In this document: positions 1 to 40,791 of the stretch, in pieces
How the letters are laid out: each line of letters starts with the position of its first letter
How positions within the stretch are numbered: the stretch's first letter is position 1
From: a virus
IMG/VR virus record: IMGVR_UViG_3300009365_003825
Location: 1-40,791 of that record
DNA length: 40,791 nucleotides
Direction: 5' to 3' (one strand)
Translations under genes and position numbers: made by a program
The notes under the pieces: model-generated
Seen by the model: the letters and a program-made list of their open reading frames with translations, nothing else
What the model was told of the DNA's origin: nothing
The model's database searches: none

Positions 1-777
1 ATGAACAACAAAATCTTCGTCTTTGCCATTTTCCTTAGTGTATCCATATTTTTGTTGGTGTTTTTAGAAAAAAAAGAAAATACTCCAACAATACAATTGC
101 CACCAATTCAACTGCCTCCACCAACACAACAACAATTACCACCACCACCTGAAATACCTCCCAAAGCAATTTTAACAAACTTTGAAGCATACCCGCAACA
201 GGGAGGCACTACCTGTGGTCCTGTCGCTGTACGGAATATATTAAAACATATGACGGGACAATTATACACAGAGGCGAGATTGTCTAAAGAAGTCATCGAA
301 GAAGATCATAAAGGATTAGAATTCCTAAGAGAGGACTTAAAACAAATAGGCATCAGGAATCCAGAATCACTCAGCAAATATGGAACTACACCAGTAGGAA
401 ATACTGCGGTTCTAAATAGATACCTGCCACCTAATATGGAAGCTAAATATCAAGAGATTCCAAAACTAGAAGATAGATTGACTTTTATTGTCAACTCAAT
501 TGCTAATGGACGCCCCGTTATGGTGCCTTTCACTAAACACTGGACTGTAGCAATTGGATATGATTTAACTCAAGAAAGACTTGTCCTGGTAAATGCTGGA
601 GTAGGAGATTCCACAACAAGACCCGAAGGTGGAACCTATTGTATGGTTGATTTTGCAACTTTTGACCATCATAATTCATTTAAAGATCCACAAAGCGGAA
701 CCGTTAAAAAAGTGTTGGATCTAGCTAATGAAAAAGGATTGGGGCGCTGGGTTCTTGTGTATATTGATGATCGCTAA
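1..777 (+). CDS. Membrane-anchored C39-like (papain-fold) cysteine peptidase
   Basis: Predicted cysteine peptidase of the C39/C39-like papain-fold type, probably displayed outside the cytoplasmic membrane. Seen: a hydrophobic segment at residues 4-22 followed by a charged KEK stretch (signal anchor), a Pro/Gln-rich linker at about 28-54 (LPPPTQQQLPPPPEIPP), then a catalytic domain. Q66 lies six residues before C72 in the TTCGPVAV motif, giving the usual oxyanion Gln and nucleophile. H180 in KHWTVAIGYD fits the catalytic His, and N198 or D203 could complete the triad. The gene opens at the first base of the window with a plausible signal-anchor start, but an upstream start cannot be excluded. 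Its stop codon overlaps the stop of the convergent gene. Known family members cleave bacteriocin leaders or peptides; no substrate can be inferred here. No ABC-transporter domain is present, so this is a stand-alone C39-like domain. Confidence 0.6.
   Translation: MNNKIFVFAIFLSVSIFLLVFLEKKENTPTIQLPPIQLPPPTQQQLPPPPEIPPKAILTNFEAYPQQGGTTCGPVAVRNILKHMTGQLYTEARLSKEVIEEDHKGLEFLREDLKQIGIRNPESLSKYGTTPVGNTAVLNRYLPPNMEAKYQEIPKLEDRLTFIVNSIANGRPVMVPFTKHWTVAIGYDLTQERLVLVNAGVGDSTTRPEGGTYCMVDFATFDHHNSFKDPQSGTVKKVLDLANEKGLGRWVLVYIDDR
774..777. other. Shared stop codons of a convergent gene pair
   Basis: The four bases CTAA carry TAA (775-777) for the plus-strand peptidase and TAG (reverse complement of 774-776) for the minus-strand isochorismatase-like gene. 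There is no room for a terminator between the genes. Confidence 0.85.
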
Positions 778-1451
778 AACACGAATTGAGACATGATCCG
801 ATATTTAATGTTTAGTGCATTCATCAAAAGTTGCACTTCTTTAAGACACTCATTCTGGCCACCACCACATAGGAACGCATTGTTGAATCTTCTAAGTTGC
901 AATAAGTCAATTTGAGGCAAATAAATATTATCGTGTTGCGGTATGTCTTCATCACCAGTTAGTTGAGTCAACAATTCTTCTGGTAACTCCCTGGAATCAT
1001 AAACTCGCCTCATTACCATTGCTCGTATGACCTGTATGATTTCATGGTCATCTACACCCTGATCCATCCAACCTCGAAAGAATGCATAACCCTTGTCATA
1101 AAAGGTTATATTCTGAAATGTTTGAAAAGCCTCTTGTGCGGCAGCGTAGGGATTGTATTCATCTTCCTCGTCTTCATCATACCATTCATAGGCTTCTAAT
1201 TCTTCACCCGTGAGCGCAGAGGCGAGCCACCGTCTTATAGAATCCGCAGTGTTTGAAGATCCAACACTATCGCCATTGTAAAAATAAAGAATCTTTTTGC
1301 CTTTTGCGAGCATTTGAGAAAGAAAGCTGGCAAATTCACCTATATCGAAATTAATGTAACTGGCATATTCAGGTTGAATATCCACTACAATTGTGTTGTT
1401 GGGGTTGTATTGACCCCGCATTTCTTGAATGAGCCACTTCTTAAAATCCAT
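774..1451 (-). CDS. Isochorismatase-like cysteine hydrolase with N-terminal FKxWL tag
   Basis: A 225-residue protein with the layout of the isochorismatase/nicotinamidase (cysteine hydrolase) superfamily. Seen: a first strand ending IVVDIQ with D24; K120 in the YDKGYAFFRG segment; and C202 in CGGGQNECLKEV, in the position of the family's GVxxxxCV nucleophile loop. D24-K120-C202 therefore fit the usual Asp-Lys-Cys triad. An acidic, Tyr-rich insert (about 86-102) is not typical, and the C-terminus ends soon after the last strand. The protein begins MDFKKWLIQEM, one of several related N-terminal tags in this window. It is the last gene of a minus-strand run, 7 bp after the glycosidase gene. A weak ribosome-binding site (AGG) precedes the ATG. 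The substrate is unknown; family members hydrolyse nicotinamide, isochorismate or N-carbamoyl amides. The class call is moderately firm; activity is an inference. Confidence 0.55.
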   Translation of the reverse strand: MDFKKWLIQEMRGQYNPNNTIVVDIQPEYASYINFDIGEFASFLSQMLAKGKKILYFYNGDSVGSSNTADSIRRWLASALTGEELEAYEWYDEDEEDEYNPYAAAQEAFQTFQNITFYDKGYAFFRGWMDQGVDDHEIIQVIRAMVMRRVYDSRELPEELLTQLTGDEDIPQHDNIYLPQIDLLQLRRFNNAFLCGGGQNECLKEVQLLMNALNIKYRIMSQFVF

Positions 1452-1458
1452 AACCTAT

Positions 1459-2601
1459 TTAGAGTTGCATCAGATTACTTAATGTAAGTTTTGGATTTTC
1501 AAAGTATTTTTTAGCTGCCAAAGTCCACAATTGCTTCTTACAACCGCCCTTCGTAGGTCTGCCGCCCCGGAAACTCACCATTTCATGGTTAGTTCCCAAT
1601 GCCCTTCTTACCCTCAAGGCCATTTCTCCCATTGGCTTTGATCTGTGCTTGTTTGCAGCTATGTGTATTAGGGCTTGTTCAAAAGGCCAAACGGTTTCTG
1701 AGTGATAAGACCGTTCTGTTTTAATTGCTGGATCTAATGTTCGGTAGCCTAATGGAGTTTCTATATTGCCTGCTGCTTCAACTAGGCCCTCTATTTCTTT
1801 TTTGCCTAAATCGCCTCGTTTTAAATAGAACAACATGTGCAACATATCGGAGCTAATTCCTTCAATTGGTCCTTTTTGATCTACTGCGATATATGGCATA
1901 GCATTATCATTAAATAAATCATAAAGCGCACCCAACATTTGCTCAGCTAACTGTTCTAATTTCTTTGACTTAAGCACATCAGCAGCACATCTTATGGCAC
2001 ATAGGTTCTGCGCATGTGCGAGTGTGTATGCGCATGGATAATCGGGCTGTCCGTATGTTCGTCCATGAATTACGGAATCTTTCCAGTATGTGTTTTTTAG
2101 AGCATATTTTTTAGCACCAGCCAATTTAGGATCTTCTTGAAACATTCCATCTTCTAAATGGCTTTCAATATATTCAACGGCTTTTCCTATATGGTGAGTG
2201 TGGTCTGAAACCAAGTCTTTAAAGACTTTATGGCCTATGATAAACAATGCGGTAGTATCACAGGCGTTAAATTTTGTAGATAGACCCCTGATTTTCTGGT
2301 CAGGCATTTCGTGAAAGATTTTTCCAGGTTCTTCCCCTGTGGTTTTATTTTGCTCTTTGCCTTGATGTTCTGCACAATAAAGTAGTTGATCCCTTAGCAT
2401 AATGGGATCGTTAAAGAGGAAGGCAGAGGTAATGCCATCACGAGGAAAATTAGCACTAAAACGGGGCGAACCTGCTTTGTAAAGAGTTAAATCACCTTCA
2501 TTTAACTTCAGTTCATCTATTTCATCTTCTTCACGAAGCAGCCAATCTTTAAAATCACTCTGTTGGGGGTGCCTGGACATTTTTAGGCATTCTTTCGTCA
2601 T
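1459..2601 (-). CDS. Glycogen-debranching-type (amylo-alpha-1,6-glucosidase-like) six-hairpin glycosidase
   Basis: A 380-residue protein that reads as the (alpha/alpha)6-barrel catalytic domain of bacterial amylo-alpha-1,6-glucosidase/glycogen-debranching relatives. Motifs in family order: FPRDG (52-56, matching GRD), HEMPD (97-101, usual substrate-loop Glu), ACDTTALF (114-121), NTYWKDS (170-176, family form NQGWKDS, candidate catalytic D175), then ISSDMLHML, ETPLGYRTLDP and YHSETVWPFEQA near 299-310, equivalent to the family's YHnGtVWPwe. This predicts hydrolysis of alpha-glucosidic bonds in a glycogen-like glucan. It lacks the N-terminal beta domain of full debranching enzymes. It carries SDFKDWLLREE at 15-25, a tag shared with neighbours. 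ATG 2601 is chosen because GAGGA lies 5 bases upstream; an ATG at 2580 (MSRHPQQ) lacks such a site. It overlaps the upstream nucleotidyltransferase gene by 47 bp. A carbohydrate enzyme of this type is unexpected beside tail genes. Confidence 0.65.
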   Translation of the reverse strand: MTKECLKMSRHPQQSDFKDWLLREEDEIDELKLNEGDLTLYKAGSPRFSANFPRDGITSAFLFNDPIMLRDQLLYCAEHQGKEQNKTTGEEPGKIFHEMPDQKIRGLSTKFNACDTTALFIIGHKVFKDLVSDHTHHIGKAVEYIESHLEDGMFQEDPKLAGAKKYALKNTYWKDSVIHGRTYGQPDYPCAYTLAHAQNLCAIRCAADVLKSKKLEQLAEQMLGALYDLFNDNAMPYIAVDQKGPIEGISSDMLHMLFYLKRGDLGKKEIEGLVEAAGNIETPLGYRTLDPAIKTERSYHSETVWPFEQALIHIAANKHRSKPMGEMALRVRRALGTNHEMVSFRGGRPTKGGCKKQLWTLAAKKYFENPKLTLSNLMQL

Positions 2602-4246
2602 ACAATCCTCTGAATCTTTCTTTTTCCTTGCGAGCTTTTAAGCCACCTATTCTTCTGTCGGGCTTCACCCTTCCTGAAACAGGATCGAAAAATTGTGCAA
2701 AATCAGGGTCATCTTGACTAACGGAAATTCCTTCTAAGCTGGCATTGTGTAAAAATGCATCAACGCCTCTCTGGAAGTCTTCTGGTGCCATACCACGTTT
2801 ATCTTGAAAACCTTCTCTTCCACTCATCAATTTCGCCCACTTCATTAAATTAGAAGTATTTCGAGATTTGTTCCCTCTAAGATAGCCAGTGGAAAACATA
2901 GCTTGTCCTTTTTTGCCTGTTTTTCCTCTGAGTCTTTCTGCGTATTTGTGGAGTTCCATATCGTCCATTTCTGGATGGAACTTATTAAAGAAATCAATGA
3001 GGAACCTCACTCGTTCAACTTCATCATGCGGCCAATGCATTCCCTTTAATGCAGTGTCTATTTCTTCAGGCGTGTTATCTGCTAACAGTGAGGCCAAGGC
3101 AATATGTTTATCCACCTTACCTTCATCATCTTCACCATGTAGCGGATTGTGAGTGAACTTTAATTTAGGAAAAACGGTGGGCAGTAGCCCCAATTCATCG
3201 GCAAGTTCAAACAACCAAGCTGGATCTTTGGCTTGTTCCAATGCTTTTCTGAATTCCTGTTGAATTCTAGGTCTGGGATCTCTGTATTGACCCGCATCGT
3301 CTTCGTAAGGTTGCAATCTTGGCAATCCTGCGATGGCTTGAATGGCTTTTTTATCTTGTTCTGTGGTTTCTCTATCATCAAGTCGCCCCTTAAATCTTAA
3401 ATACCTTAAAGCACGAAGTTGATCTTCTTCTAATCTTTCTTTTGCATTGCCAACCCATCTTACTCTCCCCTTCACAGCGTCATCTACTCCACCAAAGAAA
3501 TCAGAGACATCTTTATTATCACCGATTTTAAGTGGACCTAGATGCATGGCGTTCATTGTAAAATCACGTCTCTCAGCATCTTTCCTGATGTCTCCTGTTA
3601 ATTTAGCTGTGGTAGCTCGACCGTCTGTTTTTGCATCTTCTCGGAAAGTAGCAAGTTCAAAGTCTTGGCCATTAATAACAACTTGAACAACCATTTCCTG
3701 GTCATTCATATCTGTGCCAAGGATGGCAAAGGTATAAGGATTTTTAGATGTTTTGGTCAAGTGAGCATATTTACTATGATCTACATCATGCCCTTCTTTT
3801 CCACCCATTTTTGCTTTAGGTGCCAATTCTGAGAAACCATAATTGGTGAGAATGAGCCTGATTTCATCCACAGTTGCATCAGTTGCTATATCATAGTCTT
3901 TGGGTGTTTCGCCTCGAATTGTATCTCTCAACGCTCCACCAACTAAATATAGCTTTTTGCCTTTAATCTCATTCTTTTTAGTCCCACCAGCCTTATCAAT
4001 CTGTTGTGGGCCAAATTCCACAGGTTCATCAAACGCTTTGATTAGGACGGCTAGGTTAGGGTGCTGATCTTTCCCGGTGCCAATAGTGATTGGTTGAGGG
4101 CCATCTTCAGTTTCACCCAACTGGCTCTTTTTTGTCATAAGTTGGCCACTTGAGCTTTTTTTATCAGAAGAACCATCGCCTTTAGGCTTGCCAACTTCTT
4201 CTTTGTATAAATCTTTGACTAATAAATAATCACGAAATGTCTTCAT
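2555..4246 (-). CDS. tRNA nucleotidyltransferase / poly(A) polymerase family protein
   Basis: A 563-residue class II nucleotidyltransferase of the CCA-adding/poly(A) polymerase family. All core head-domain motifs are visible: LVGGALRD (101-108), KDYDIATDA (116-124, with the metal-binding DYD), ELATFRED (197-204), RRDFTMNAM (226-234) and EEDQLRALRYLRF (273-285). This predicts NTP-dependent 3'-end extension of RNA, either CCA repair of tRNAs or oligo(A) tailing; sequence alone does not separate these. The first 95 residues are extra: a tag, MKTFRDYLLVKDLYKEE, then a Lys/Ser/Gly-rich low-complexity stretch. MKTFRDYLL resembles the T4 capsid-targeting sequence MKTYQEFIA, suggesting delivery with the virion. 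A segment at about 143-190 between DYD and ELATFRED is longer than in bacterial enzymes. The gene starts 1 bp after the coiled-coil gene and overlaps the following glycosidase gene, so the minus-strand genes are probably co-transcribed. Confidence 0.85.
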   Translation of the reverse strand: MKTFRDYLLVKDLYKEEVGKPKGDGSSDKKSSSGQLMTKKSQLGETEDGPQPITIGTGKDQHPNLAVLIKAFDEPVEFGPQQIDKAGGTKKNEIKGKKLYLVGGALRDTIRGETPKDYDIATDATVDEIRLILTNYGFSELAPKAKMGGKEGHDVDHSKYAHLTKTSKNPYTFAILGTDMNDQEMVVQVVINGQDFELATFREDAKTDGRATTAKLTGDIRKDAERRDFTMNAMHLGPLKIGDNKDVSDFFGGVDDAVKGRVRWVGNAKERLEEDQLRALRYLRFKGRLDDRETTEQDKKAIQAIAGLPRLQPYEDDAGQYRDPRPRIQQEFRKALEQAKDPAWLFELADELGLLPTVFPKLKFTHNPLHGEDDEGKVDKHIALASLLADNTPEEIDTALKGMHWPHDEVERVRFLIDFFNKFHPEMDDMELHKYAERLRGKTGKKGQAMFSTGYLRGNKSRNTSNLMKWAKLMSGREGFQDKRGMAPEDFQRGVDAFLHNASLEGISVSQDDPDFAQFFDPVSGRVKPDRRIGGLKARKEKERFRGLYDERMPKNVQAPPTE

Positions 4247-5157: not shown

Positions 5158-6474
5158 ATGACTGATATTATTTTTGAAGATTGGTTGGTGGAACAAGATA
5201 TTCCGCCATTGGCAGGACAGCACGATCAAGGTGTTGGCCCCGGAGGCGCAGGCGCACTCGGAACGGGACCAGGAGGATTCCCCGGAGCAGGACCGGCTGG
5301 AACTGACCCAAATCAGCAACCGCCCGATCCAAATGTTGCTAACCAAGGTATGCCGCAACAACCAGATGTGACACAAGATCCACAACAACCAGATATGCCG
5401 GAAGAACCGGAAAATATGGATTTTGAAACATGGCGAAGTAAGTTCTTTGAAGAAACCAAGTTGCCAGCAGAACCATTTGAAATGGTTGAGCTTATTAAAA
5501 GAGTTCGGGATAGAACCCTAGAACCCTACGAACGAAAATTCGTGGAAGATAACCTCCAAGTCCAATACCTGAGAGAAAATGCCAATATTAAACTGGCTTC
5601 TCAGAAAATCAGGAAAGGAATTAAAGAACAATTAGACCAAAATAACCCATCTGTCTCCTTGACAAACCACCTTACTAAAACACTTCAGGAAATGCCAGAA
5701 CTGGTTAATGTGTTTATTAAAATCACCGGAATGCTAGGAGCCAAAGGCGATCTGCATAGAAAATACATTGCCGCATTATTCGGTGCCGTTCAAGTGGGTA
5801 GCGGAGCAACAAACGAAGATATTATTTACAATACCAAGGAATACTCAATTGCTATCTCTACCAGATTCAACTCTGTGTATGGAGATGTGTTCCTGGGTAA
5901 ATGGGCACTCCAAGAAGATGACCCAGAAAGATACCTCAAAGAACCAGAGTTAAATCGTCTTGAAAGCGGTGCCCCTGAAGAAAAAGAGGCGCTTAGGAAA
6001 AGACTCGTTGTGGAATCAATCGCTGATAGATTTAAACAAAGAGCCTTTCTGGTTAATGTAATTCAAGATGATGGAACAGTTACCACTCTTGGAATGGATT
6101 TGGGCAATCTTCTGAGAAATGCTTATAAAGAGGGCAAGATAATTATTAAATTCTCTCGTTCTGAAAACTCAGAAGCCATGATTGAAGACAATGGCGGCAT
6201 TGTTCCGCTCATGGATATTAAAATCAACTACCGTAAGCCCACTGGAAAACTCGATGCAGAGGGACAAACAGAATATGAAGAAATGTCCTTCATGGAACGA
6301 CGAGATGGCATGTTGATGCTTATGGCTACTGAAGACTTATTAAATGAGGCGTCTGGAACTTTGTTGGGAATGGCGTTTAAAACATTGCCTTATTCTGGCA
6401 ATCCTAGTGATTTGAAAGCTATTGCTAGAAGCGTCCCCGATGCAGCCGAATTTCTTTTAGCGAGAAACCCATGA
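5158..6474 (+). CDS. Unrecognised virion-type protein with Gly/Pro-rich N-terminal linker
   Basis: A 438-residue protein not assigned to a family. It begins MTDIIFEDWLVEQD, matching the N-terminal tag of several neighbours, followed by a Gly/Pro/Gln-rich low-complexity linker (about 17-82: GPGGAGALGTGPGGF and repeated QQP units). A second tag-like segment, MDFETWRSKFFEE, falls at about 87-99, just before a globular alpha/beta region (100-438). No membrane segment or catalytic motif is visible. The tag, the linker and the position upstream of the tape measure suggest a structural or capsid-packaged protein, but this is inference. The ATG has an AAGGAAG ribosome-binding site about 6 bases upstream, inside the end of the previous gene. 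Its TGA overlaps the next ATG (ATGA), implying translational coupling. Confidence 0.6.
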   Translation: MTDIIFEDWLVEQDIPPLAGQHDQGVGPGGAGALGTGPGGFPGAGPAGTDPNQQPPDPNVANQGMPQQPDVTQDPQQPDMPEEPENMDFETWRSKFFEETKLPAEPFEMVELIKRVRDRTLEPYERKFVEDNLQVQYLRENANIKLASQKIRKGIKEQLDQNNPSVSLTNHLTKTLQEMPELVNVFIKITGMLGAKGDLHRKYIAALFGAVQVGSGATNEDIIYNTKEYSIAISTRFNSVYGDVFLGKWALQEDDPERYLKEPELNRLESGAPEEKEALRKRLVVESIADRFKQRAFLVNVIQDDGTVTTLGMDLGNLLRNAYKEGKIIIKFSRSENSEAMIEDNGGIVPLMDIKINYRKPTGKLDAEGQTEYEEMSFMERRDGMLMLMATEDLLNEASGTLLGMAFKTLPYSGNPSDLKAIARSVPDAAEFLLARNP

Positions 6475-6731
6475 TTGATTTTAAAACCTACGCAGAAAAT
6501 TCTGACTTAGCTCAAATTGCCCAAAAAGCTAAAATCGACATTAAAAACGTTGATATGGGTCAATTAAAAATGGGTATGAGTGTTGAAAAAGAACATGACG
6601 GCCCTATGGGGAAAGACACAGATGTAGTTCCGGGGCATGACAAGGCCACAATTATGAAGATTGCAGTGGCGCATTTAAGGGAAGACCCTAAATATTACAC
6701 TAAACTCAAAAAAGTTGAGGGAGAAGAATGA
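6471..6731 (+). CDS. DUF5661-like small protein with N-terminal tag
   Basis: An 86-residue protein. Residues 31-80 show the pattern of the DUF5661 family as I know it: a GMSVEKEH motif, a D/V-rich loop, then KIAVAHLREDPKYYTKL, i.e. A-x-HL-x-E-x-P-x-YY-x-x-L. The family has no established function and occurs in bacteria and phages. The first ten residues, MIDFKTYAEN, again resemble the tag on neighbouring genes. It overlaps its upstream neighbour (ATGA at 6471-6474) and its downstream neighbour (ATGA at 6728-6731), so the three are probably translated together. It is unlikely to be spurious, because the motif is well kept. Confidence 0.6.
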   Translation: MIDFKTYAENSDLAQIAQKAKIDIKNVDMGQLKMGMSVEKEHDGPMGKDTDVVPGHDKATIMKIAVAHLREDPKYYTKLKKVEGEE

Positions 6732-7231
6732 AGACATTTAATGAGTACGTTGACAAAAAGAAAAGGGAATGTAAAAAACAACTAACTATTGTCAAAAAAC
6801 TCTTTGAGGCAAACAAATGGACGGTTGCTGACCATGCCAATGGTGAAGATCCTCACATTTTCGTTCGTGCTCCTCAACATAATTTAACCTTTGATGGCGT
6901 CAGAATTTACAAAATAGCCGACACCTTGGCCTATCGGGTTCAAAGAGAAGAGAAGACGCACCCATACGGGCGCGCATACTATCTCAACTTGGAAGAAATG
7001 TTCAAAGATTTGATGTCAGACAACATTAAAGAAGAGGAAGCAGGAAAAAAAATCATCCAAGCGGTCACGGAAGAATTAAAAGATTTCTTTGAAAAGAGCT
7101 ATGCGGCTGAAAAAGACTTGCAGCATCAGAAGATAGATAAAGACAGAAATCCATCTACCTCTAGTATAACTGGGAGCAATTATCACAAAAAGGTAACAGG
7201 TAGCTCTTGGGGTTCATCTTCAGGTAGATAA
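6728..7231 (+). CDS. Small unrecognised protein with N-terminal MKTFNEYV tag
   Basis: A 167-residue protein of unknown function. It begins MKTFNEYVDKKKREC, close to the MKTFRDYLL start of the nucleotidyltransferase and to the T4 capsid-targeting sequence. Residues 18-70 look like a small alpha/beta domain (LFEANKWTVADHANGEDPHIFVRAP). Residues 85-125 are helical and acidic, and the last 30 are a Ser/Gly/Thr-rich tail (GSSWGSSSGR). No catalytic motif is seen. The start overlaps the stop of the preceding gene by 4 bp. Confidence 0.55.
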   Translation: MKTFNEYVDKKKRECKKQLTIVKKLFEANKWTVADHANGEDPHIFVRAPQHNLTFDGVRIYKIADTLAYRVQREEKTHPYGRAYYLNLEEMFKDLMSDNIKEEEAGKKIIQAVTEELKDFFEKSYAAEKDLQHQKIDKDRNPSTSSITGSNYHKKVTGSSWGSSSGR

Positions 7232-31000: not shown

Positions 31001-31355
31001 ATACGGCGGCGTAAATACTCTTATTACATTGAACGGGCCAAAGGAGGATTGGTCGCTTAGCGGCGAATCTAAGGATTTTACAATTTATCGTATAGCCAGA
31101 GAGGCGTTCACCGTGCCAGACCAAGAAGAACCAGCCAGTGACGGTCACGAATTTGAATCAACTCCCCCGGTTGATGGTGTAAATAGAAGTGGTGCTGATA
31201 TTATTTCCATTTCGACAGAAACAGCGACTCCTATGACTTCTTGGGCATACATGTCAGTGTTAAATGCCAAGAATGGTGACGAAATCACTGAAATCGTAGG
31301 TCAAAATGAAGACATAAATATGCATATCGAATATAAAGAGGAACCCAATGATTGA
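28023..31355 (+). CDS. Baseplate/tail protein with P2 gpI / gp7-like domain
   Basis: A 1110-residue protein. Its middle part (about 215-330) resembles P2 gpI-type tail proteins: DLTPDVLARFNGAIAEHF, then IDILDANVTNPTFLQILANY, then LYKKKGTLPSLREALQEAG, typical of the KxKGTxxxLxxxLxxxG pattern of this family. A second region, IIDEYTPFQAILHTLNFSG (about 560-578), resembles the DEYTPFHA segment of gp7-like wedge proteins. In T4, gp7 joins gp8 and gp10 with gp6 and gp25; in P2, gpI attaches fibres. N-terminal and C-terminal parts are beta-rich and not recognised. The last 8 bp overlap the next gene. Confidence 0.7.
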   Translation: MASKRINESPTLSDTIIFDIRCPLSDDCLPTTEQPWKVSKVTIYYIKRDYLNDQVKGYEEETYDQDKLAHAEKWEKEACVNPTPDNIKMAQKARQSLDASKVTSLFFYNEAVPVKVFGVDDFPAWLRSDPDNSILDPVEEDEDGNTQYGVFSLNWEPYDQREGDYFIVWHWEQDPAGDSYTDYRLFRIKTDTAITTVIPSHQTDPEKYINLLTAYQPSMFETIVADTDLTPDVLARFNGAIAEHFTEIEDLGNQLIDILDANVTNPTFLQILANYFNKKLRSDDIALWRRQIKKAIPLYKKKGTLPSLREALQEAGILMLKYTPLWQIISSYTWCEAHYATEDNQEEFILNRNPILPLTGDAATNFELEMRGVDEDDWTILTSDYVSFSYDVDTGATTMTWVGGDLSVNPINLVEGDTIKVTYLINVIPDAAQQTIETYIRTLPLSDQRDDRDQAYPHKNWNVRVIEEDDVMFDLVIPTRHPYSPDVVFGQIRTEFPFSENIYNMDEFNGSLRDSTDPCNIDKDFVDCCTACISSKFNLDVQIQDITNDRIVETLEIIDEYTPFQAILHTLNFSGLISEFVNTTSEELDILVKYSHEETVSGGNIQKIFQRSMERESRVAQAGIVDATVLKREALSSMTSETTGSGTVSNEEIVLYTPYLNLQEIGIDNGVYLANPSAYTPGSNPNVLEITSGSNTGQYVLSGDTAYHMMTIDAGSPDTIPEAGIAPYLDETEFRFRLSNVGYSNATNNLALSKWVTFTDSNLDFNTLGVKTQWDVDNDPVYTGGPWQLSITSPGVATFDIGKLNSDGSLVIDNLTAVEALLLGAWSDIEYELLDDSAAVIDDSDTGQTTLHDRATIEVVDGAVTDIRNEYIEIGDYCLYGSTQYPIIEFVDGETKKFYIDDYTGSVGSGSITIYRRIADDVGYVGYRGMQLLVSGSDLENSLDVQNGENPPGTVSDEDRMMENFLVLIYDTGSPPGSPPIHGYYAMEYINGQYGGVNTLITLNGPKEDWSLSGESKDFTIYRIAREAFTVPDQEEPASDGHEFESTPPVDGVNRSGADIISISTETATPMTSWAYMSVLNAKNGDEITEIVGQNEDINMHIEYKEEPND

Positions 31356-31830
31356 ATCTCAAATAAAAACAAGAGGCGATGTTGAAAGAATCATTGAATA
31401 TAAAAACGGTGATAAAGAGGTTAAGCGGTTTAGGAACACCATTTTAACCACAGGACGAGAAGCCTTAGCCAAATCCCTCGCAAATGAAATCGGGGACAGC
31501 TTCACTAATTATGTGACCTACATGATTTTTGGTAATGCTGGGACTACAGGTTCAGGTGGTGGAACACCCAAATATGTCGAAGGCCATAGGACCGCTTTAT
31601 TTAGCACCCCTTTGGTTTCTAAGGGCGTGTTTGCCACTACTGATAGTACACAAGTTATCTTCACAAGCGTTTTGAGTTTTTCCGAATTTGGCACGACTCA
31701 CAGTGAAGTAATTGACGAAATGGCTTTAGTCCTCGCCAACAATGATCTTTACAGTATGGTCACATTCCCAAGACTCACCAAGACGCAAGAAATGCAAATT
31801 ACATGGAATTGGAGATTAAACTTTGTATAA
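31348..31830 (+). CDS. Small fibre/baseplate-type structural protein
   Basis: A 160-residue beta-rich protein. Visible features are ILTTGREALAKSLANEIG (about 32-49), YMIFGNAGTTGSGGGTPKYV, and a C-terminal DLYSMVTFPRLTKTQEMQI followed by TWNW near the end. This NxIxxxGRxxLA ... FGxxGT ... FPxxxKT...TWxW order is familiar from small tail proteins in large phages, where it is usually annotated as a structural protein without defined function. It overlaps the preceding gene by 8 bp. Its end overlaps the TTG start of the thioredoxin gene, so both are likely coupled. Confidence 0.55.
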   Translation: MIESQIKTRGDVERIIEYKNGDKEVKRFRNTILTTGREALAKSLANEIGDSFTNYVTYMIFGNAGTTGSGGGTPKYVEGHRTALFSTPLVSKGVFATTDSTQVIFTSVLSFSEFGTTHSEVIDEMALVLANNDLYSMVTFPRLTKTQEMQITWNWRLNFV

Positions 31831-32311
31831 CTTAATTGTCTTGTTAGCTCTTGTAGGAGCCGATCCGCTAGAAAAGGAAATGGAACAAGCACAAGAGGAA
31901 AAGAAACACATCTTCTTGTTCTTTACTGCTGATTGGTGCAGCTATTGCCAAAAAATGAAAAAAGAAACCTTGGAAGACAAGAGATGGAAAGAGTTTGCGC
32001 CAAAACACTACGTTACTAGATATATCAAAGATACTGAATCAGAATTGATTAGGAAGTATAAGATTACAAAAGGCTACCCCACATATTTAATTCTGGATAA
32101 CCAAGGAAAGGAATTAAATAGAGGCGTTGGCTTTAGATCGTATCCTTCATTTATCAAATGGCAGAACAGCACATGGAAAAAAAAGAATGAAAGTAGAAAT
32201 CAAGCCTTTTACCAACGACCTTGGAGAAACAATAGACGCTCTATACTTCAATGGTCAACCGCTCGATTGGGCGATTACAGAGGAGCAGTGGTGGGTGTCG
32301 GAATGCAATGA
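31823..32311 (+). CDS. Exported thioredoxin-like protein, probable -1 frameshift end
   Basis: A thioredoxin-fold protein with a short hydrophobic N-terminus (YNLIVLLALVGADP, signal-like). ADWCSYCQKM gives the active site C39/C42, and GYPTYLIL the conserved cis-Pro (P86). It is probably a disulfide oxidoreductase outside the cytoplasm. The start is TTG 31823, chosen because it gives the signal segment and has GGAG 8 bases upstream; ATG 31880 would remove it. Read straight through, the protein has 162 residues, but the last 41 (Arg/Trp-rich: NRRSILQWSTARL...) look like noise and overlap the next gene in another frame. A slippery A AAA AAG at 32179-32185 would shift the frame by -1 and end the protein at TGA 32188-32190, giving 122 residues. 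The alternative is an extra A in the eight-A run from sequencing. Confidence 0.75.
   Translation: MYNLIVLLALVGADPLEKEMEQAQEEKKHIFLFFTADWCSYCQKMKKETLEDKRWKEFAPKHYVTRYIKDTESELIRKYKITKGYPTYLILDNQGKELNRGVGFRSYPSFIKWQNSTWKKKNESRNQAFYQRPWRNNRRSILQWSTARLGDYRGAVVGVGMQ
32179..32185 (+). promoter_or_regulatory. Candidate -1 ribosomal frameshift site (A AAA AAG)
   Basis: In the thioredoxin frame the codons are TGG AAA AAA AAG AAT GAA. The heptamer A AAA AAG is the E. coli dnaX slippery sequence. After a -1 slip the next codons are GAA and TGA, as in dnaX (GAG TGA). The TGA (32188-32190) overlaps ATG 32187 of the following gene. No strong upstream Shine-Dalgarno or downstream hairpin was seen. Confidence 0.4.
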
Positions 32312-32438
32312 CCCCGTTACACGAATGAGGTCTTTTTATACCATGAAACTGGTGTTTGAGGACATTGTTTCGGAGATTGCAGGAAGACGTGTCACTATTG
32401 CTGAATTGAATGAAGCTATTGAAAAGGGTGAATTATGA
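32187..32438 (+). CDS. Small unrecognised protein downstream of thioredoxin
   Basis: An 83-residue protein, MKVEIKPFTNDLGETIDALY..., with Trp-rich centre (DWAITEEQWWVSE) and a helical C-terminus (RRVTIAELNEAIEKGEL). No family recognised. The ATG is chosen because it forms ATGA with the -1-frame TGA of the thioredoxin gene; an earlier in-frame ATG at 32127 would lie inside thioredoxin coding sequence. Its own stop overlaps the SET-gene ATG by 4 bp (ATGA at 32435-32438). It is likely real because of these overlaps, but small. Confidence 0.55.
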   Translation: MKVEIKPFTNDLGETIDALYFNGQPLDWAITEEQWWVSECNDPVTRMRSFYTMKLVFEDIVSEIAGRRVTIAELNEAIEKGEL

Positions 32439-32941
32439 TTTGCGTAGAAGAAACTGACCATCGGTATAATGTTAAAAAGTCCACCATTCCCGGTGCCGGT
32501 TTGGGTTTGTTTGCTAAAGTGCCTTTAAAAAAAGGCGATTGTCTTGAACTGGTAGGCGCACAAGTGCCTATTCAATCAATCACTGATATAGCAACATATT
32601 ACGCAGGCAAATATAAATTTGCTGCTACGGATAAAGACCCAACCAGATATGTGATACCAATGGGATATGCGGCATTTGTTAATCACTGCCAGGAAAAACA
32701 AAATGTTCAGATTGTGGCCGCAAAAGGTCGTTCTCCAAAAAACCCCAATAGTGGGCAAATAGTTTATTTATTTCTTAGAGATATAGAACCCGATGAAGAA
32801 CTCCTTGGGGATTATGGTCCCAAATGGGAAGAAACCTTCCGATGGCTAGAAAAAGTAGATGAAGATTGGGAAACCTTCGTTGACCACAATCTATATAGGA
32901 TAAGGGAATTCCAAGATAGGTTCATAAAATGCCAAACATAG
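32435..32941 (+). CDS. SET-domain protein, predicted lysine methyltransferase
   Basis: A 168-residue protein with a minimal SET domain. Seen: STIPGAGLGLFAKVPLKKGD (16-35, the GxG SAM-binding loop and strand), AAFVNHCQEKQNVQI (79-93, with the NHC motif that closes the SAM pocket), and IEPDEELLGDYGPKW (117-131, with the catalytic-type Tyr Y127). These occur in the canonical order. This predicts SAM-dependent methylation of lysine on a protein, with no pre- or post-SET zinc domains. SET proteins are unusual in tailed phages. Its location between two fibre-type genes, sharing ATGA and a 13-bp overlap, suggests a virion protein or host protein as target, which the sequence does not show. Confidence 0.8.
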   Translation: MICVEETDHRYNVKKSTIPGAGLGLFAKVPLKKGDCLELVGAQVPIQSITDIATYYAGKYKFAATDKDPTRYVIPMGYAAFVNHCQEKQNVQIVAAKGRSPKNPNSGQIVYLFLRDIEPDEELLGDYGPKWEETFRWLEKVDEDWETFVDHNLYRIREFQDRFIKCQT

Positions 32942-33735: not shown

Positions 33736-34271
33736 TGTTTGAACCTAAAAGTCTTGATTTTGGATTTGTGGTCCTTTGTCCAGAACCGCATGTCAGATCA
33801 TTAAAAAACACATTGAGATCCATTTTTTTGAGCTATCCAGAGTATCCATTTATTGCTGTGGCGGCTGGAACTACGCCCCCAGATGTAATGAAGGAAATGA
33901 AGAAGCTCTGTAAAAAGACCGTAAAAAGCAAGAACACTATTACATCCTTGCTAAATACCGGACTTAGAAATGCTCCAGCAGAATGGGTGATATTTATATG
34001 CGCAGGCACATGGGTCAAAAAGAAGGTGTGTAAAAACCTGAGTAAGTTTATAGAAGACGAGACAGATGTGGTTTATCCTATTGTTGAAGGCGTCTATAAA
34101 TGGAAAGATTGTTCTTTGAATGGTATCTGCATAAATAAGAAGATGATTAAAAAAGTGGGTCCATTTCCTGAAGAAGGGAAGCTGGACCGATGTAAGGAAA
34201 TGTGGGCTTTGATGGCCACCGCAACCTGTAATTCTAAATTTAAAGCTGTATTAGGCGGGAGTGTAGATTGA
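33735..34271 (+). CDS. Glycosyltransferase-like (GT-A fold) protein lacking DxD
   Basis: A 178-residue protein with the outline of a small family 2 glycosyltransferase: DFGFVVLCPEPHVRSLKNTL (8-27) as the first strand and helix, a second strand (YPFIAVAAG), ITSLLNTGLRNAPAEWVIFICAG (69-91) where GT2 enzymes have NxGxxxAxGexixFlDaDD, and ICINKKMIKKVGPFPEE with KCEMWALMA later (G-x-FxE...eD.el). The metal-binding DxD that normally follows the strand is replaced by FICAGTW (87-93), so catalysis is doubtful; a degenerate, non-catalytic fold is possible. It lies in the fibre region, where such proteins occur in other large phages. ATG overlaps the preceding stop (TAATG) and TGA overlaps the next ATG (TGATG). 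Confidence 0.5.
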   Translation: MFEPKSLDFGFVVLCPEPHVRSLKNTLRSIFLSYPEYPFIAVAAGTTPPDVMKEMKKLCKKTVKSKNTITSLLNTGLRNAPAEWVIFICAGTWVKKKVCKNLSKFIEDETDVVYPIVEGVYKWKDCSLNGICINKKMIKKVGPFPEEGKLDRCKEMWALMATATCNSKFKAVLGGSVD

Positions 34272-34567
34272 TGCGTAATTATTATTTGGACCTAGCTGAA
34301 GAAAAGAAGGCTCAAGAAAAACTAGATGAGGCAAATAGGGAATTGATTGAAGAAGCAATCAAAACGATTGAAGGCTTACCCATGTGGGCCGAAAACAATA
34401 ATACTTGGACTGTGAATAGCAATCACCATTACTATTCCCACTACGAGAAGAAAAACTATAAGACGTGGCAGAGATCGCTCGCCCCGTTTGATTTTAATAG
34501 TAGAGAAAAATTTAGAGGCGACCTATCTTGGAAGTCTACAACCGGAAGTATAAGAATAGAGGAATGA
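34271..34567 (+). CDS. Small protein with MRNY N-terminal motif (copy 1)
   Basis: A 98-residue protein of unknown function. The first 13 residues, MRNYYLDLAEEKK, match the next gene's MRNYFLDIADEKN. The rest is a charged helix (to 35), an Asn/His/Tyr-rich segment (NNTWTVNSNHHYYSHYEKKN) and a short basic C-terminus. ATG 34271 overlaps the preceding TGA (34269-34271). TTG 34268 would add one residue and is not favoured. Confidence 0.5.
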   Translation: MRNYYLDLAEEKKAQEKLDEANRELIEEAIKTIEGLPMWAENNNTWTVNSNHHYYSHYEKKNYKTWQRSLAPFDFNSREKFRGDLSWKSTTGSIRIEE

Positions 34568-34568
34568 A

Positions 34569-34877
34569 ATGCGTAATTATTTTTTAGATATAGCAGATGA
34601 AAAGAACAAGAAACCAGAAATAACAATTGATGAGAATGTGTTGCCACCTTCCGGCACACCAATTGGTTTTACTTTTACAGTAAATATACCAGATATGCCA
34701 GATATTCCAGAAGATGCAATACAGGTTCCCATTGATGTTGGAGCAGCTTTCCCGGCACATTTGCCATCAAAAGCAGAGTTTAAACATCCAACTGTTACTA
34801 CTGGAAACAGCTATCCAACAGGATATGTTCGCTCAAATCATGTTCACAAAGGATTATATTCCAGCAAAAAACGTTAA
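34569..34877 (+). CDS. Small protein with MRNY N-terminal motif (copy 2)
   Basis: A 102-residue protein. It begins MRNYFLDIADEKNKK, like its neighbour, and continues with an I/P/D-rich stretch (NIPDMPDIPEDAIQVPID) and a KHPTVTTGNSYPTGYVRSNHVHKG C-terminus rich in Thr, His and Gly. No family recognised. It ends in TAA shared with the convergent deoxyribosyltransferase-like gene. Confidence 0.5.
   Translation: MRNYFLDIADEKNKKPEITIDENVLPPSGTPIGFTFTVNIPDMPDIPEDAIQVPIDVGAAFPAHLPSKAEFKHPTVTTGNSYPTGYVRSNHVHKGLYSSKKR
34874..34877. other. Palindromic TTAA shared by two convergent stop codons
   Basis: TTAA carries TAA (34875-34877) for the plus-strand gene and TAA (reverse complement of 34874-34876) for the minus-strand gene, as at 774-777. 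Confidence 0.85.
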
Positions 34878-39630: not shown

Positions 39631-40791
39631 ATGAGAAACTTTCCTCCTAAACCGGCATATCCGCTAGGGATTGATGATAATTCAACACTCTACTTGGTTT
39701 ACAACTCAACCGAAGCCTTGTTGCGTGAAGATAATCAACCCTGGTCAGATATTATTAAAATCGTCCCGGTGGAGGAAGATTCCCCCGAACTTTGGCCCAC
39801 AAATGGATTCGGCACAATCAATGGGGAGCTTTTTTACTATGATGCAGTAGGAACAGATGCAAATGGTAAAATTAACGAACTTAAAAAGTGTCTGAGAGGT
39901 CTAGGAGGCGAAAACACATCTTATAATTCCATCATCGGTGGCACAACTATATGCCCACGGGCTGGAACGGTAGTTCGTGGTTTAGTGGTAGCTGAACACC
40001 ATAATCAACTTGTCGATGCAGTAGTTAATCTTCAAGAGTTCGTTGGATATAATTTTGATCCAAATGTCGAAACATTAGATTACAGAATTAGATGTCTACG
40101 TGAGGTTCCAGTTTGTGTCGATGACTTTTGTATAACTGTTGTTGATTTTATCGCTGATATAATTGAACCCGATGAGCCTAATGCTTGTGTTGGTGTAGAC
40201 TTAGAATATAAAATAGACATTGAGGGATACTTCACCCAGTTCACAATTGATTTCGGTGATGGAACCTTTACATCAACGCAATTAGAAGGCACACATACCT
40301 ACGCGCCTAATGCAAAAATAGCGCCAGTAGCAATCATTGTTGACCCTCGTTGTCAAACAGTTATTACACCAGCCAATCCATTAGAGCCAGAAATTCCAAC
40401 AAGCGAAATAGAGCCGGTATTAGACATTGAAATGCCGGAAATTCCAGACTTGCCAACATGTGATATTGGCGATTGCACTATTCAACCTCCTGAAATTAAT
40501 GTTCCCCCTATTTTATTTCCTTGTTTGAGTCTTACACCAATCAATTTCCCAAGCATCAACATTTTAATTGATGCATTAGAGGGCGTTCCAAGCATCATAG
40601 AGTTCGGGCCTATTGACATTCCTACGCTGATTGATTTCGGACCAGTTGATATTCCTACGCTGATTGAATTCGGGCCAGTTGAGATCCCCACATTGATTGG
40701 ATTCGGGCCAATTGATATTCCGACACTGATTGAATTCGGGCCAATTGATATTCCGACACTGATTGAATTCGGGCCAATTGATATTCCTACG
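39631..40791 (+). CDS. PKD-domain virion protein, paralogue 3 (partial, runs off window)
   Basis: The frame from ATG 39631 is open for 387 codons to the right edge, so the C-terminus is missing. The N-terminal module (1-145) is like the two upstream genes: GELFYYDAVGTD, LKKCLRGLGGENTSYN, VVAEHHNQLVDAVVNLQEFVG. A PKD-type domain follows (about 190-235, FTIDFGDGTFTSTQLEGTHTYAP). Then comes an I/P/E-rich stretch (about 247-320, EIEPVLDIEMPEIPDLPT) and the tandem repeat IEFGPIDIPTL (11 residues, from about 323). It is Cys-richer than its paralogues, with ten Cys in the visible part. A fibre or surface protein is likely; the repeat may form a regular shaft. The TATATATA octamer lies upstream. Confidence 0.65.
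   Translation, partial: MRNFPPKPAYPLGIDDNSTLYLVYNSTEALLREDNQPWSDIIKIVPVEEDSPELWPTNGFGTINGELFYYDAVGTDANGKINELKKCLRGLGGENTSYNSIIGGTTICPRAGTVVRGLVVAEHHNQLVDAVVNLQEFVGYNFDPNVETLDYRIRCLREVPVCVDDFCITVVDFIADIIEPDEPNACVGVDLEYKIDIEGYFTQFTIDFGDGTFTSTQLEGTHTYAPNAKIAPVAIIVDPRCQTVITPANPLEPEIPTSEIEPVLDIEMPEIPDLPTCDIGDCTIQPPEINVPPILFPCLSLTPINFPSINILIDALEGVPSIIEFGPIDIPTLIDFGPVDIPTLIEFGPVEIPTLIGFGPIDIPTLIEFGPIDIPTLIEFGPIDIPT
40600..40791 (+). repeat. 33-bp tandem repeat encoding 11-residue units
   Basis: Units start at 40600, 40633, 40666, 40699, 40732 and 40765 (the last truncated at 27 bp by the window end). The consensus product is EFGP-[IV]-[DE]-IPTLI. Units 4-6 are nearly identical in DNA, differing at only a few bases, while unit 3 is the most diverged, so recent expansion is likely. 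Confidence 0.95.

Follow-up and report, generated by a model that had tools for sequence, protein, structure and literature searches.

A shift-prone A-run at the end of a phage thioredoxin-like gene: a probable one-base frame offset over the conserved gene downstream

In Escherichia coli dnaX the slippery heptamer A_AAA_AAG is followed one codon later by a stop (PMC5009743). When it is placed in E. coli without stimulators, the same heptamer shifts at a rate of ~0.3%, which even the most favourable 3' context raises to no more than ~3.7% (PMC4066793). For A/T runs, counterselection typically shows at lengths of nine bases and above, although in some bacteria slippage may already occur at eight (PMC1088944). 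For the phage described here, these rates serve as a guide only.

The analysed IMG/VR record comprises 40,791 bases (the window, i.e., the whole stretch of DNA examined) and bears tail and baseplate genes of a large-phage group; its baseplate J-like protein is ~50-59% identical to those of many IMG/VR contigs, the longest of 527 kb. The locus of interest contains a thioredoxin-like ORF placed between gp160 and a conserved gene of unknown function, o83 (Table 1). In ~12 related phages the o83 homologues are located between gp160 and a SET-domain gene. Since gp160 directly precedes o83 in most of the relatives, and none of the 57 gp160-bearing loci has a thioredoxin gene at this junction, the thioredoxin gene is an insert in the window phage. 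Searches for close relatives of it in phages, viral_contigs and genome_contigs gave either none or only distant bacterial ones. Two loci (L095 and L097) carry an o83 homologue ~1.5 kb away from a thioredoxin gene. The gp160, o83 and SET-domain genes form a conserved module (31348-32941; the module was seen at eleven other loci), flanked by baseplate and fibre-like genes. The presence of a SET-domain protein within a phage tail cluster seems unusual.

Table 1. Coordinates of the features discussed (positions in the window)
Feature	Position	Strand	Remarks
gp160 (PHROG 5417), upstream gene	31348-31830	+	3' end overlaps thioredoxin start
Thioredoxin-like ORF, 0 frame	31823-32311	+	TTG start, TGA end; 162 aa including the 41-residue tail
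Thioredoxin_7 domain (PF13899)	31868-32098	+	Pfam, residues 16-92, E 5.8e-17
Run of eight As	32177-32184	+	
A_AAA_AAG heptamer	32179-32185	+	phased for a -1 slip
-1 frame GAA (32185) TGA (32188)	32185-32190	+	stop of the would-be 122-aa product
0-frame tail, 41 codons and stop	32186-32311	+	o83 read out of frame; no counterpart in homologues
o83, conserved gene of unknown function	32187-32438	+	83 aa; ATG start overlaps the -1-frame TGA (ATGA)
Predicted stem-loop, starting 30 nt 3' of the heptamer	32216-32256	+	not taken as stimulator
SET-domain gene, next after o83	32435-32941	+	
Genes with the shared N-terminal motif	774-1451(-), 1459-2601(-), 5158-6474, 6471-6731, 6728-7231; also 2555-4246(-), 34268, 34569		also in L095, L097, L047, L044

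The thioredoxin ORF encodes a protein with a WCSYC motif and a short hydrophobic N-terminus, and its TTG overlaps the stop of gp160. The protein belongs to the thioredoxin family, as indicated by Pfam, by sequence matches in PDB and by an AlphaFold model with strands and helices to approximately residue 120, which together give the fold with its CxxC. In this model (29-sequence alignment) the pLDDT is ~95 to residue 110, the prediction is confident to ~120, and the values fall to ~50 beyond residue 130; the tail is thus predicted to be disordered. The whole of the thioredoxin domain is encoded 5' of the A-run, and a disordered tail should therefore leave the protein functional.

The tail itself consists of the 41 residues that follow K121 (NESRNQ...GVGMQ) and is rich in Arg and Trp. 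Among 51 distinct phage homologues, 50 have their C-terminal end 0-13 residues past the position of W113, the lone exception extending 44 residues with a Pro-rich tail. The window protein runs 49 residues past W113 in the 0 frame versus 9 with a -1 step. Because the homologues end near the last helix, the pLDDT of the tail is ~50 and o83 is a real gene, the tail is the o83 sequence in another reading frame. A preliminary description of this DNA had already suspected out-of-frame sequence here, and it is the homology of o83 that settled the matter rather than codon usage, since the two frames score alike over the same bases (0.083 for the tail vs. 0.072 for o83) and the score does not discriminate between them. 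Moreover, in all eight o83 homologues examined a stop interrupts the frame of the tail after 2-28 codons, and the tail therefore does not represent a conserved overlapping gene. The thioredoxin thus has its ancestral or functional end at or near the TGA at 32188, one base out of frame as sequenced.

The sequence comparisons indicate that o83 represents a real gene family starting at 32187. The alignment of its homologues begins at their start codons, and the window o83 is recovered at E 4e-9 by an HMM from which the window sequence had been left out; a search with the single o83 sequence gave no homologues. The overlap between the thioredoxin ORF and o83 (125 nt) is the sole long same-strand overlap in the window, the next largest being 13 nt. 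Overlaps of 4 nt occur at four other junctions of the window, and the ATGA-like type is common in this genome.

The codons read from 32174 are TGG AAA AAA AAG AAT GAA. The preliminary description proposed a dnaX-like frameshift site in these letters, and on re-reading its coordinates, its phase and the lengths of the two products (122 vs. 162 residues) proved right. The heptamer conforms to the X_XXY_YYZ pattern (codons AAA AAA AAG), a -1 slip does lead directly to GAA TGA as in dnaX, with the stop at 32188-32190, and this TGA overlaps the ATG at 32187 in the ATGA geometry that had been described. The junction is accordingly a shift-prone site of a well-known type. The heptamer alone is unremarkable, because it occurs in phase in five window genes, in the other four of which it lies in the middle of the ORF with no sign of recoding. 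As for transcriptional slippage, for which a run of at least nine A/T or shown slippage is the mark, the run falls short with its eight As. In another window gene eight As stand immediately 5' of the ATG (21011), and the run at the junction may be no more than an A-rich leader belonging to o83.

The likeness to dnaX ended with the heptamer, its phase and the stop, as both stimulators are absent. No Shine-Dalgarno sequence was found at the stimulatory distance (~10-14 nt) upstream, where anti-SD pairing within the 20 nt before the heptamer reaches -2.6 kcal/mol at best. Likewise, there is no stem-loop ~5-8 nt downstream of the heptamer: among 50-nt folds that start a few nt 3' of it, the best reaches -4.2 kcal/mol, and 77% of genome windows are as stable. 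A more distant stem-loop (z -2.66; Table 1) was considered as a stimulator and rejected, since its start is 30 nt away from the heptamer and its stability is matched by 27% of windows. A search of viral_contigs with the exact DNA pattern of the junction, allowing a variable A count, gave no match, and nothing relevant linking frameshift, thioredoxin and SET was found in the literature on huge phages.

The anatomy of the junction is probably explained, with no new assumption, by a one-base offset (in the phage or in the assembly) combined with low, unprogrammed slippage. The thioredoxin gene, an insert between gp160 and o83, would have its usual end shortly past the last helix, with an ATGA overlap into o83. 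This end would be displaced by one base of frame, and as sequenced the 0 frame passes by the TGA at 32188 and continues for 41 codons through o83. The source of the offset would most likely be a single-base length change (a putative indel) within the eight-A run or shortly before it; as the -1 frame is open from 32137, the change could lie anywhere from there to the run with the same stop resulting, and the run is the likeliest place only because runs change length easily. Such a change may be a real mutation of this lineage; that it is an assembly error is less likely. Slippage at the run, ribosomal or transcriptional and not programmed, would supply the 122-residue product in a small share only, with translation restarting at o83 by coupling. 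What counts against the offset is that a shift-prone heptamer stands exactly where a correction would be needed and, as a mild oddity, that the off-frame run stays open for 41 codons, which is expected by chance in 1.9% of cases. An error in the length of the A-run made in sequencing or assembly, the true genome then having a plain thioredoxin gene with an ATGA overlap, is in itself unlikely, and this estimate, referring to a sub-case of the one-base offset, is not to be added to that for the offset. A single base would be enough to produce the long tail as well as the unique overlap, but 12 other in-gene A/T runs of at least seven (three of them eights) are all found in intact ORFs, which argues against assembly error in general. 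The preliminary description had the direction of such an error reversed. It took an extra A in a run truly of seven as the alternative, and reads with seven As as grounds for dismissing the frameshift, whereas seven As fuse the thioredoxin to o83 (~204 aa) and it is nine that give the 122-residue product; nine As mimic a -1 slip because the slip equals one added base.

Functional recoding, in which the ribosome slips at A_AAA_AAG or RNA polymerase adds an A (as in Thermus dnaX) to give a useful share of the 122-residue thioredoxin and termination-reinitiation at o83, appears rather doubtful. The in-phase heptamer, the GAA TGA and the ATGA speak for it, as do the fit of the 122-aa end to the thioredoxin family, the precedent of the same heptamer with a stop one codon later in E. 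coli, and the help that coupling would give to o83, whose Shine-Dalgarno sequence is weak (-3.3 kcal/mol). Yet the flanks of the site offer no stimulator and only an ordinary distant stem, no relative found carries the site, and the run is shorter than the nine bases at which selection typically becomes evident, even if eight may slip in some bacteria. That the 162-residue form is itself the selected product, its Arg/Trp-rich tail overprinting o83 and having a role, we regard as very improbable: the rarity of so long an open off-frame run and codon scores no worse than those of o83 fit it, but no homologue has such a tail, the tail is predicted to be disordered, and its frame is closed in every o83 homologue inspected. 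Scarcely credible is an in-frame fusion of the thioredoxin with o83, whether by a +1 step or through a run of seven As. The +1 frame is indeed open from 32118 through o83; in the relatives examined, however, o83 stands alone and has a start of its own, and A_AAA_AAG favours -1 rather than +1 shifts.

It is highly unlikely, in our estimate, that an unstimulated slip at A_AAA_AAG in this phage cargo thioredoxin selects between the 162- and 122-residue forms, with the ATGA termination of the latter driving the next gene and so linking the dosage of the cargo to that of the conserved o83-SET module. If the recoding were real, it would be a case of slippage that fits an inserted cargo gene into a coupled operon in a group of huge phages. 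As matters stand, the locus is a useful warning that a shift-prone A-run at the end of a gene can result from its overlap with the A-rich translation start of the following gene, and that an offset of one base at such an overlap mimics a dnaX site.

Several other features of the window were recorded. An N-terminal motif (e.g., MDFKKWLIQE, MKTFNEYVDK and IIFEDWLVEQD) recurs in proteins unrelated to one another and is found in 5 of 31 window genes versus 2% of internal 30-aa windows with a pattern that was chosen after looking. The motif resembles the capsid-targeting sequence of T4, and its possible role as a prohead-protease sorting tag among these phages merits attention. Two adjacent small proteins (34268-34567 and 34569-34877) have similar N-termini (MRNYYLDLAEEK and MRNYFLDIADEK), and similar starts (MKNFWLERAEKK) occur at another place in three other loci (L008, L009 and L017). 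Tandem repeats of IPTLIEFGPID occupy the end of the window (40482-40791), within an ORF that begins at 39631 and is cut by the contig end.

Compared with known systems, the anatomy of the junction does not support a dnaX-type programmed frameshift at the thioredoxin end. E. coli dnaX (tau/gamma) shares with it the in-phase A_AAA_AAG, the -1 stop after one Glu codon and a frameshift product that is the shorter one, but dnaX has an upstream Shine-Dalgarno sequence and a properly spaced stem-loop, both of which the window site is without. Furthermore, the dnaX site lies two-thirds of the way through the gene and the part lost there is a functional domain, whereas the window site lies at the gene end and what is lost is an out-of-frame reading of o83. 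Transcriptional slippage in dnaX of Thermus thermophilus likewise takes place on a coding-strand A-run, and at the window junction an extra A in the mRNA would bring a nearby stop into use; the Thermus run, however, has nine As versus eight. With Thioredoxin_7 and Thioredoxin_2 proteins (PF13899 and PF13098) and with short phage thioredoxins, the window protein shares the fold, the CxxC and a complete domain (residues 16-112), but these homologues are without its 41-residue C-terminal extension. Finally, as in ATGA stop/start overlaps with translational coupling, the TGA of the -1 frame overlaps the ATG of o83; in ordinary coupling of this type the stop stands in the 0 frame, while at the o83 junction it is met only in the -1 frame.
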